From: a virus
Strand: one strand, 5' to 3'
Length of the DNA stretch: 25,407 nt
IMG/VR virus record: IMGVR_UViG_3300017964_000064
Coordinates: 1-25,407 of that record
Shown: piece by piece, positions 1,102 to 4,272 of the stretch
Layout: every line of letters begins with the position of its first letter
Position numbering within the stretch: position 1 is the first letter of the stretch
Notes under the pieces: generated by a model
What the model was told of the DNA's origin: nothing
The model's input: the letters and a program-made list of their open reading frames with translations, nothing else
Databases searched by the model: none
Position numbers and translations under genes: made by a program

Positions 1102-3027
1102 ATGGAGGATTGGGGATCATACATCCTGCCAGCAGCCAGAGCTGTGTGGGGTGAACCGTCAAGTGTCACTGAGCACGAGGTCCGTTGGGGGACCCACGGC
1201 TCGAAGTCTGTGCGCCTCGACCGAGGCGTGTGGATGGATCACGAGACGGGCGAAAGCGGCGGCGTCGTGGACCTCGTGCGAACTCACCTGATCCCCGTGG
1301 GTGAGCGCGAGGAACGCGGCGCCGTTGCGCGTTATTTACACAGCGAGTTCGGCGCACCGCTTGATGACGCGCCGGTGGAAGATATGAGCGTGTTTAAGCC
1401 CGGGATGCAGCTCGTCGAGACGTTCTGGTACATGAGCGAACACGGCGACAAGCATCTGCGCGTCGAGCGGCATGAAGATGGCACCGGCGACAAGACGTTC
1501 CGGCAATACACGGTGCGCAACTTGGCGCCGAGCAAAGACAGCGCGTTTTACCCGGTGCCATACCGCCTGGACAAACTGCTCGCGGCGCCAGACAAGCCGA
1601 TCTTCATTGTCGAAGGCGAGAAGTGCGTCCACGCGCTGGAGCAGCTCGGATTGCTCGCAACCTGCAACGCCGGCGGCGCAAAGAACTGGCATGTAAGTCT
1701 GGGCAAATGGCTCGACGGCCGGCGCGTGTTCGTCCTGCCAGACAACGACCAAGCAGGCAGCGATCACGCAGACGACGTAATTGAGAAGCTAAAGCCGTGG
1801 GCAAGCGAGATCCGACGCGTCGAGCTGCCGGGGCTCGAGCACAAGGGCGATGTGGCGGACTGGATCGAAGCCGGCGGCACGAAGCTCGAGCTCGCAGCTC
1901 TGGTCAAAAGCGCAGAGCCTGTCGCTCTGGATGACATCACGACGACGTACAAGTATGCCGACCTGACTGACATACTTACGCGCGAGCCGGCGCATTGGCT
2001 CATCCCAAACTACCTGCCGCAGTCGAGCTTGACGGCCATCTATGGCGAGCCCGGCAGCTACAAATCGTTCCTCGCGCTCGACATGCTGCTGAGCCTCGCA
2101 TACGGCGTGCCTTTCGACGGCCACGAGCTCGAGCAAGGCTATGTCTGTTATGTGGCGGGCGAAGGTGGCGGCGCACTGCGTAAGCGTGTAGCGGCGTGGC
2201 ATCATTGGCGCGGTGTCGAACCGCAGCGTGGCGTGTTCGGCGTGATCGAGGAGCCGGTGCCGCTGCGCGAGGAAGGCGCAATCGACGCGCTGATCGCGGA
2301 TCTCGAGGCTATGAGGCGGCGCAAACCGCTGCGGGCAATCGTTTTCGACACGCTGGCAAGGTGCATGTCGGGCGACGAGAACAGCGCCACGGACATGGGC
2401 GAGGCAATCAAGGCGCTGGATGCGGTAAAGGCGCACTTCGCGCCCGACACGACGGTTATCGCGGTGCATCACCAGGGCAAGGTTGACCGTGGCTTGCGTG
2501 GCTCGAGCTCACTGCTCGGCGCATTAGATGCGGCGCTCCAGTGCAAGCGCAACGACACCACGCTCGAGGTCATCACGCAGAAGATGAAGGATTTCGAGGC
2601 GGCCGAGCCGGCGTGGTTCCAAGGCCACAAGGTCTATGTCCAGGCGCATGTGCTCGATGATGTGGAAAGCAGCATCGTGCTGGAGAGCCTCGGCGAGAAA
2701 CCTCAGGTCGAGGAACAGCTCACGACGGTACAGCAAGCCGTGCTTCACGCGCTGCATGAAGCGCTGCTCGAGAGCGGGCGGCCAAACCAGAACGGCGTCG
2801 ATTGGCCAACGGTGTCGCAGGAGCAATGGCGCGACATGGCACTGGGTTTGGAAATCAGCGAAGGCGACCGCACGGCGAAGCGAAAAGCGTTCAATCGAGC
2901 AGCCAATGCACTCGTCAAAAAGCGACGCGCAGGGGCTAGAAATGGCCGCGCATGGCCAATTCGGCAGGATGGAGAGGAGTTTGCCCGGGACACGCGCCGG
3001 GACACGTTGCGGGACACGGACCTATGA
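1102..3027 (+). CDS. Bifunctional primase/helicase-like protein (TOPRIM + RecA-fold ATPase)
   Basis: A 641-aa replication protein. Residues about 1-90 resemble the primase N-terminal region (WMDHETGESGGVVDLV) but lack the zinc-binding cysteines of a CHC2 finger. A TOPRIM domain follows (about 165-240) with the catalytic glutamate motif VEGEK at 170-174 and the metal-binding PDND at 213-216. A RecA-like ATPase then has Walker A GEPGSYKS at 315-322, Walker B IVFDT at 413-417 and AVHHQGK at 454-460, which resembles the sensor region of RepA/AAA_25 hexameric helicases. Together this suggests a primase-helicase that primes and unwinds phage DNA at the fork. The last codons (ARDTRRDTLRDTDL) are shaped by GGGACAC repeats. 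It overlaps the next gene as ATGA. Whether the TOPRIM half actually synthesises primers is unproven. Confidence 0.82.
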   Translation: MEDWGSYILPAARAVWGEPSSVTEHEVRWGTHGSKSVRLDRGVWMDHETGESGGVVDLVRTHLIPVGEREERGAVARYLHSEFGAPLDDAPVEDMSVFKPGMQLVETFWYMSEHGDKHLRVERHEDGTGDKTFRQYTVRNLAPSKDSAFYPVPYRLDKLLAAPDKPIFIVEGEKCVHALEQLGLLATCNAGGAKNWHVSLGKWLDGRRVFVLPDNDQAGSDHADDVIEKLKPWASEIRRVELPGLEHKGDVADWIEAGGTKLELAALVKSAEPVALDDITTTYKYADLTDILTREPAHWLIPNYLPQSSLTAIYGEPGSYKSFLALDMLLSLAYGVPFDGHELEQGYVCYVAGEGGGALRKRVAAWHHWRGVEPQRGVFGVIEEPVPLREEGAIDALIADLEAMRRRKPLRAIVFDTLARCMSGDENSATDMGEAIKALDAVKAHFAPDTTVIAVHHQGKVDRGLRGSSSLLGALDAALQCKRNDTTLEVITQKMKDFEAAEPAWFQGHKVYVQAHVLDDVESSIVLESLGEKPQVEEQLTTVQQAVLHALHEALLESGRPNQNGVDWPTVSQEQWRDMALGLEISEGDRTAKRKAFNRAANALVKKRRAGARNGRAWPIRQDGEEFARDTRRDTLRDTDL

Positions 3028-3152
3028 AAAAGACGCAGCAAAAACAACGACGTAGCAGGACGGGACACGGGCCGGGACACGCAGCGGGACAACAATCGCC
3101 AAATCACGCGAGCCGGGACACATGGGACACATCTTTAGTGTCCCGTGTCCCG
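2987..3152 (+). repeat. GGGACAC iteron-like repeat array with long hairpin (candidate replication origin)
   Basis: The 7-mer GGGACAC occurs at 2987, 2999, 3011, 3062, 3074, 3115 and 3124, with a one-mismatch copy GGGACAA at 3086. Its inverse GTGTCCC occurs at 3138 and 3145. Two blocks of three are spaced exactly 12 bp apart (2987/2999/3011 and 3062/3074/3086), just over one helical turn. The last two direct copies face the two inverse copies: 3124-3130 pairs with 3138-3144 around the loop ATCTTTA, and 3114-3121 pairs with 3145-3152, giving a stem of about 15 bp with a 2-nt bulge. Iterons beside a helicase gene and upstream of a winged-helix initiator-like gene are the usual layout of a plasmid- or phage-type origin. 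The repeats are seen directly; origin function is inferred. Confidence 0.65.
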
Positions 3153-3617
3153 TCCGGGTCGGCCATGATCGAGCATTTGGATCGCATCGCAACAGAGCTC
3201 GAGCTCGTGTGGGGCGGACATTTACAAAACCATGTCGCGCCGGAGTTGAAAGCCAAGTTCGAGGCGCAGCAGCAGAAGCTCGATGACGCGATTGCGTCGG
3301 GCGATGACGAGCTGATCGCAAAACGTGCCGGCGCAATGGCGAGAGCGTGGCGAGCCCTCGACGCAGCAGCTCGAGCAGATGGCATTAAGCCAGCCGATGA
3401 AGCGTTGTGGATTGGCAAGCGTCGCGATGGCCAGCTCGTGTGCATCTACACCAGCGCTGCGCAGTTCAGCGTGCTGCCAGATCACATGCCGCGCTTCTAC
3501 ATCGACGAGCTCGTCAACATGATCCCGACTGCGGCGCTGAAGGCGAAGGAGGTGTGGCCTGACGCCACAATCGAGGGCATCAACAAGCGAGATCTCGACG
3601 ATGAAATCCCATTTTGA
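3024..3617 (+). CDS. Replication-module protein with an SSB-type C-terminal tip
   Basis: A 197-aa protein if translation starts at 3024 in the ATGA overlap with the helicase; an in-frame ATG at 3165 would give 150 aa. The first 45 residues are basic low-complexity sequence dictated by the GGGACAC repeats beneath them. The conserved-looking body runs from MIEHLDRIATELE through a long helix pair (about 60-115), then LWIGKRRDGQLVCIY, FYIDELVNMIPTAAL and the C-terminus NKRDLDDEIPF. That tip is almost identical to the last residues of bacterial SSB (DFDDDIPF), the docking peptide for PriA, RecO, RecQ, exonuclease I and other repair factors. The body is not an obvious OB fold. It probably acts on DNA or recruits host SSB partners. 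The stop overlaps the next gene by 17 bp. Confidence 0.6.
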   Translation: MKKTQQKQRRSRTGHGPGHAAGQQSPNHASRDTWDTSLVSRVPSGSAMIEHLDRIATELELVWGGHLQNHVAPELKAKFEAQQQKLDDAIASGDDELIAKRAGAMARAWRALDAAARADGIKPADEALWIGKRRDGQLVCIYTSAAQFSVLPDHMPRFYIDELVNMIPTAALKAKEVWPDATIEGINKRDLDDEIPF

Positions 3618-4272
3618 CGGCAAGCCGGACACACGGCTCTACGCCATCATGCCAGCTCGAGCGATACAGGACGACGAGCTGCATCCAACGGGACTGCGTG
3701 TCCTGGGCGCGCTCTGCCTGCACGCCAACAAGTACGGGATTTGCTGGCCGTCGCGCATCACGGTGGCGCGTCATATTGGCAAGAGCGTAACCACGGTGTC
3801 GCGTCACTACGGCCGGCTGGTCAAAGCAGGCTACCTGCGCCGCTTGCAGGGCAAGGCGTATCCAGTGCCGCGCAGGCAGCCGGGGCGTTGGTACACAGCG
3901 CGCTTCCAAGTGCTCTACGAGGGCATCGAGACGCCAATGCCGACATATGAACAGTTCATCAGCCCAAAGCCGCGTGTGGTGGCTGAGCTCGATGAGGCGC
4001 CCGTCGAGGAGGCAGCGCATAAAAGTAAGGGGGTACGGGGGACGCAGGCGAAATCGCTGGCACAAGCGTTTGTCAGCGGCGTCGCGGCCGCGTCTGGCGT
4101 CCACCGCACGGCCGAATCGAGCCTCGCCGTGGCCGAAACCCTTGCTGAGCAAGGCGTAGAGCCCGAAGCGGTGCGGGATTACGCCATGCAGATGACGCTC
4201 GAGGCCCTGAAATCCGGGCGTCAGCCGCCGCTCACGCTCAATCAGGTGGCGTCATGGGCTGGCTTGAGCTAG
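3601..4272 (+). CDS. Winged-helix protein resembling phage replication initiators
   Basis: A 223-aa protein whose N-terminal 90 residues form a winged helix-turn-helix: LHPTGLRVLGALCLHAN, then CWPSRITVARHIGKS (helix 2) and VTTVSRHYGRLVKAGYLRRL (recognition helix and wing). This is the HTH_36-type domain found in phage O-like and plasmid RepA-like initiators. The middle is a linker rich in acidic and basic residues, and the C-terminal helices (VAETLAEQGVEPEAV and after) end in LTLNQVASWAGLS. It is the last gene before the dyad-rich gap and lies about 450 bp downstream of the GGGACAC array, the natural candidate for its binding site. A transcriptional-regulator role is the main alternative. Confidence 0.6.
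   Translation: MKSHFDGKPDTRLYAIMPARAIQDDELHPTGLRVLGALCLHANKYGICWPSRITVARHIGKSVTTVSRHYGRLVKAGYLRRLQGKAYPVPRRQPGRWYTARFQVLYEGIETPMPTYEQFISPKPRVVAELDEAPVEEAAHKSKGVRGTQAKSLAQAFVSGVAAASGVHRTAESSLAVAETLAEQGVEPEAVRDYAMQMTLEALKSGRQPPLTLNQVASWAGLS

Follow-up and report, generated by a model that had tools for sequence, protein, structure and literature searches.

A phased repeat array and hairpin beside a phage primase-helicase gene form a candidate replication origin that may be read by the helicase C terminus

Organization of the locus

We analysed a 25.4-kb virus record from IMG/VR (the window), which has the structural module of a T7-like podovirus. Its replication module comprises, in order, an AlpA-like HTH protein, a candidate SSB, a Toprim-AAA_25 primase-helicase, a protein that we call MID and a separate winged-helix protein (wHTH), and is followed by the small terminase. 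The features that concern us are the following, in window coordinates.

551–1096, + strand: putative SSB, ending in DDDLF, with no Pfam or PHROG hit in the window
1102–3027, + strand: primase-helicase, Toprim plus AAA_25 (SF4), from Pfam (AAA_25, 5e-37), an AlphaFold model and Foldseek
2725–2958, + strand: C-terminal winged helix of the helicase (residues 542–619), proposed reader of the iterons on the basis of the model and of covariation
2869–2919, + strand: recognition helix of that winged helix (residues 590–606), as modelled, containing RKAFNRAANAL
2987–3017, + strand: first iteron triplet, (C)GGGACAC three times at 12-bp spacing, at the 3' end of the helicase gene, which encodes the predicted disordered tail
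3024–3617, + strand: MID, of no known family or fold, its disordered N terminus overlapping the array
3042–3054, + strand: spacer with a putative IHF-like sequence, AAACAACGACGTA, a 7/9 match that is weak here
3062–3092, + strand: second iteron triplet, GGGACAC, GGGACAC and GGGACAA at 12-bp spacing
3114–3152, no strand assigned: hairpin, GGGACAC twice, centre ATCTTTAG and inverted GTGTCCC twice, the same word as the iterons
3601–4272, + strand: wHTH, HTH_36 / phrog_270, replication initiation-like

The AlphaFold model of the helicase (pLDDT 86) has T7 gp4, Twinkle and RSF1010 RepA as its best Foldseek matches, the last (1g8y) with a TMt of 0.70. It also places a winged helix at the C-terminal end of the protein. 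A reading of this DNA made earlier from sequence only had taken 3601–4272 to be the window's only initiator-like winged-helix gene; it is not the only winged helix nearby, because the helicase's own C-terminal end is modelled as one. Residues 624–641 of the helicase and 1–44 of MID are predicted to be disordered. Searching PDB sequences gave no match for the helicase or wHTH and weak hits only for MID, for which a structure search returned no significant fold match. MID, a conserved protein, ends in DDEIPF, which resembles the C-terminal tip of SSB. The protein in the place of the candidate SSB in Roseobacter phage CRP-811 has sub-threshold ssDNA-binding Pfam hits.

Exact copies of GGGACAC start at 2987, 2999, 3011, 3062, 3074, 3115 and 3124 on the + strand and occupy 3138–3144 and 3145–3151 on the − strand, with a degenerate copy, GGGACAA, at 3086 within the second triplet. 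The inventory of the sequence-only reading, seven direct and two inverted exact copies plus a degenerate one in 166 bp, is thereby confirmed, as are its two triplets at exact spacing (12/12 and 12/12 bp) and its long imperfect hairpin (15 pairs, a 2-nt bulge and the loop ATCTTTA). Just two further exact copies exist in all 25.4 kb, and the resulting 11 were matched by none of 100 dinucleotide shuffles of the window. GGGACA, present ten times in the 166 bp, is the window's densest 6-mer cluster; the maximum 6-mer cluster count in 40 Markov-1 simulated windows was six. The array copies are translated in three different codon phases which, together with the predicted disorder of the flanking protein ends, fits the DNA-level selection that had been proposed for the array. 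With short direct repeats arranged in tandem, in phase with the helix and beside a replication gene, the locus has the make-up of an iteron-type origin. GC skew, suggested earlier as a check, is dominated by gene direction in ten contigs of 32–37 kb and shows no switch at the array.

Array architecture in relatives

Relatives were gathered with wHTH, MID and the helicase as bait, giving 78 distinct loci with MID then wHTH, most with the helicase upstream; these loci were collected mainly through wHTH and are not independent. In the relatives examined, an array and a hairpin lie between the helicase end and the body of MID, laid out as two repeat clusters with copies 10–12 bp apart, a spacer of ~50 bp between the clusters and a hairpin whose centre resembles CTWWAG. 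Clades differ in the repeat word (GGGACA, CGGACA, TGGACA, CGAACA, CGCACA, GTGACA, TCACA, GGTCGG, CGAACC, GGCGC and others), and the layout varies far less than the word across 25 representatives. Measured from the hairpin centre, the ends of forward copies fall near −67, −56 and −45, the most conserved positions; the second cluster lies near −145 to −100, with the counterparts of the window's first triplet falling in clusters at about −145 to −100; and successive repeat spacings peak at 9–12 bp. In 10/10 long contigs no other cluster of the word is as dense as the array, which lies 770–950 bp before the wHTH start. In two loci (L098 and L100) the array stays beside MID while the helicase sits about 1.2 kb upstream. 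The spacer sequence of these two, CTAAGTCATTGAAT, resembles the spacers of L112 and of Rhizobium phages.

Hence the repeats are conserved despite divergent protein ends, as the sequence-only reading had envisaged, in their architecture and not in the word itself. Since position and geometry are kept in relatives whose protein ends diverge, an origin or DNA-level nucleoprotein site is supported, and placement and geometry conserved in this way are again those of an iteron-type origin. That part of the earlier proposal of a phage origin stands; its proposed binder is contradicted by the comparisons below.

The relatives also bear on whether the hairpin acts at the RNA level, as a terminator, an attenuator or a translational control of MID. 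The stable hairpin that several phages have close to where MID begins would suit such a role, but phages differ in whether the hairpin falls within the MID reading frame or ahead of it, its stem is made of the iteron word, and on this strand a U-tract and a terminator call are absent and no Rfam family was found. We regard an RNA function as very unlikely.

Between the triplets, 19/36 representatives have a match of at least 8/9 to the IHF consensus WATCAANNNNTTR (7/9 in the window). These matches lie mostly at −72, −85, −95 or −105, roughly helical steps, some in coding and some in non-coding DNA, and their combined p of 2e-7 comes from related sequences. We treat an often-present IHF-like bend site in the spacer as a lead only. 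The group of L051, L056, L075 and L079 is without an IHF-like site and has another conserved spacer block between the triplets, about ATGACGCGGGTTGTAG.

The repeat word follows the helicase C terminus

Natural recombinants allow the three neighbouring proteins to be compared as candidate readers of the repeat word. L077 has CGAACA and L081, L083 and L086 have CGGACA though their wHTH DNA-binding domains are 100% identical; their helicase C termini are 52–59% identical. L092 has CGCACA as against CGGACA in L079, L089, L091 and L093 (wHTH 95–97%), and L006 has GGGACA as against CGGACA in L009 despite identities of 94% in wHTH and 92% in MID. Conversely, L016, L018, L022, L025 and L026 share one array with L020 and L023, with helicase C termini 98–100% and wHTH 60–64% identical. 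Among the pairs compared, none with helicase C termini at least 85% identical differed in word. Partial correlations with the word are 0.40 for the helicase C terminus, 0.17 for wHTH and −0.22 for MID; for pairs with wHTH at least 85% identical, r is 0.74 for the helicase C terminus and −0.07 for wHTH. Across these recombinants the word goes with the C-terminal winged helix of the helicase, not with wHTH or MID. MID was also considered as the binder and rejected on the L006/L009 pair and its negative partial correlation.

The sequence-only reading had proposed wHTH (3601–4272) as the binder, which would make this an iteron origin served by a separate initiator like lambda O or RSF1010 RepC. 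Its HTH_36 and PHROG replication-initiation hits, and its adjacent and syntenic position in most relatives, are what such an initiator would have. The word, however, does not track wHTH as it would in a lambda-O-like arrangement: domains 95–100% identical occur with different words, wHTH domains only 60–64% identical occur with the same array, and cultured phages (below) have the array without wHTH. The assignment of wHTH as binder is probably wrong, and an origin bound by it is decidedly unlikely.

The main confounder is linkage between the array and the helicase end. Because the array adjoins the helicase C terminus, the correlation of the two would arise partly from linkage alone, an effect that the discordant pairs reduce and do not remove.

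Within the recognition helix, residue classes that were picked after seeing the data go with particular words: RKAFxR goes with GGGACA where x is N, Y or A, mostly with CGGACA where x is K, R, Q, V, G or T, and is intermediate where x is S. RM(A/S)WKR goes with CGAACA, RMAWIR with CGCACA and RQVWKR with GTGACA. The residue-base pattern is mixed in a few lineages (the L038 group, L054 and L072).

The wHTH gene itself appears to recombine as a cassette apart from its neighbours (L020/L023, L077, L092). In the L016 group its recognition helix is hypervariable while MID is 91–98% conserved.

Arrays in cultured phages

Cultured phages were chosen with the helicase as sole bait. Eight have an array directly after the helicase stop, with AT-rich-centred or similar hairpins: Idiomarinaceae phage 1N2-2 (GGTACA), Alteromonas phages PB15 and XX1924 (GGTTCA), Rhizobium phages RHph_N65 (GCGGAGAT) and RHph_Y3_1 (TGGGAA), Salicola phage CGphi29 (GGGACA), phage ST231 (ATAACA) and Roseobacter phage CRP-811 (CTACAA). 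In the region examined no homologue of the window's wHTH was detected in these phages, and only CRP-811 has a MID homologue. RHph_N65 has a primase part of the Prim-Pol/PriCT-2 type in place of Toprim; it is therefore the AAA_25 helicase, with its C-terminal part, that stays with the array. The link between helicase and array is common and not universal, because four phages (Kagunavirus, Gordonia phage Gustav, Microcystis phage Mae-JY30 and Caulobacter phage GB2A) have no clear array after a helicase of this type. In Methylophilales phage MEP301, the nearest isolate by portal (61%), no helicase of this kind is annotated.

A packaging (pac/cos) or partition site would be in keeping with the small terminase 1.7 kb downstream in the window; the array nevertheless stays beside the helicase in phages whose surrounding genes differ, and its word tracks the helicase, which makes such a site highly improbable.

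The genome records of several of the cultured phages carry no origin annotation at the place of the array, and the word 'repeat' is absent from the paper describing CRP-811. In the literature on AAA_25 phages outside subscription journals, we did not find this arrangement described.

A candidate origin and its possible mechanism

We propose that the array is a replication origin read by the C terminus of the adjacent helicase, which we consider likely and the best of the readings compared here. Counting against it are the GC skew, the distant helicase of L098 and L100, the phages that have this helicase type and no clear array, and the weakness of the window's IHF-like sequence. The winged helix of the helicase would bind the iterons of the two triplets, one subunit per helical turn; many relatives have an IHF-like site in the ~50-bp spacer, at which bending would draw the triplets together. 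The complex might then spread to, or open, the adjoining inverted-repeat hairpin, which is AT-centred and CTWWAG-like, where the ring helicase would enter and its Toprim domain would make the first primer. Accessory roles in the replisome or in loading may fall to MID, whose tip is SSB-like, and to wHTH downstream.

The same array could instead be an operator, at which the helicase C terminus, MID or the AlpA-like protein regulates transcription of the replication operon. It spans the junction of two co-directional genes, and iterons often autoregulate too. A promoter-like site was, however, not found within 2700–3700, the conserved helical phasing and the hairpin go beyond a usual operator, and the word tracks a domain of the primase-helicase; we consider an operator unlikely.

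Relation to known origins

The helicase modelled here has a RecA-like/DnaB (SF4) fold, which P4 alpha lacks, and the two do not share the helicase class that homology would imply. As a single protein, P4 alpha does combine a primase and a helicase with a C-terminal winged helix that binds short origin repeats (PMC4234260). Toprim, AAA_25 and the modelled C-terminal winged helix likewise lie in one protein here, and the winged helix would likewise bind origin repeats; the added hairpin of the same word and the difference in word between clades set this locus apart. The plasmid pRN1 protein ORF904 and Bordetella phage BIP-1 offer further primase-helicases with a C-terminal winged helix, and a stem-loop origin directly 3' of the gene is required in pRN1 and proposed in BIP-1 (PMC4234260). 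The hairpin studied here is also directly downstream of a primase-helicase gene, but in pRN1 and BIP-1 an archaeo-eukaryotic primase is joined to an SF3 helicase and iterons are unreported at the stem-loop. The window helicase is of the T7 gp4/Twinkle/RSF1010 RepA kind and is therefore a member of neither the P4 alpha nor the pRN1/BIP-1 family.

RSF1010 oriV has iterons and stem-loops used for priming (PMC4234260). It shares with this locus a RepA-type helicase fold and the combination of iterons with stem-loops, whereas its RepA, RepB' and RepC are separate proteins and it is RepC, not the helicase, that binds its iterons. In V. cholerae PLE, the DNA-binding domain of the RepA_N initiator covaries with its iterons, the two forming an exchangeable module (PMC8263062). 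Covariation of origin word and DNA-binding domain is common to both, but the PLE initiator is a RepA_N protein with long semi-palindromic iterons and without a helicase fusion.

Our reading predicts where the origin lies, and what reads it, in several cultured phages and in scores of uncultured ones, marine and other. The loci would also supply a series of naturally occurring changes of specificity, with recognition helices set against iterons, for studying the evolution of origin recognition; switching of the word possibly avoids cross-talk or parasites, as may be compared with PLE/ICP1. More tentatively, and with odds that we put below even, these could be widespread tailed-phage origins served by a self-loading T7-gp4/Twinkle-like (SF4) primase-helicase, in which the winged helix reads iterons by an often-switched residue-to-base code, the two triplets are bridged by IHF into a synapse and opening or priming takes place at the CTWWAG hairpin, without a separate initiator or loader. 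DnaB-type helicases generally need loaders, and self-loading by an SF4 helicase at an origin that it locates itself would therefore be unusual.

The module also occurs on contigs binned into bacterial genomes, L140 (a Polaribacter MAG) and L141 (an Opitutae MAG), whose host assignment is uncertain. Finally, contigs G003 (36.2 kb) and G009 (34.4 kb) have end overlaps of 99 and 123 bp, respectively, and probably represent complete genomes.
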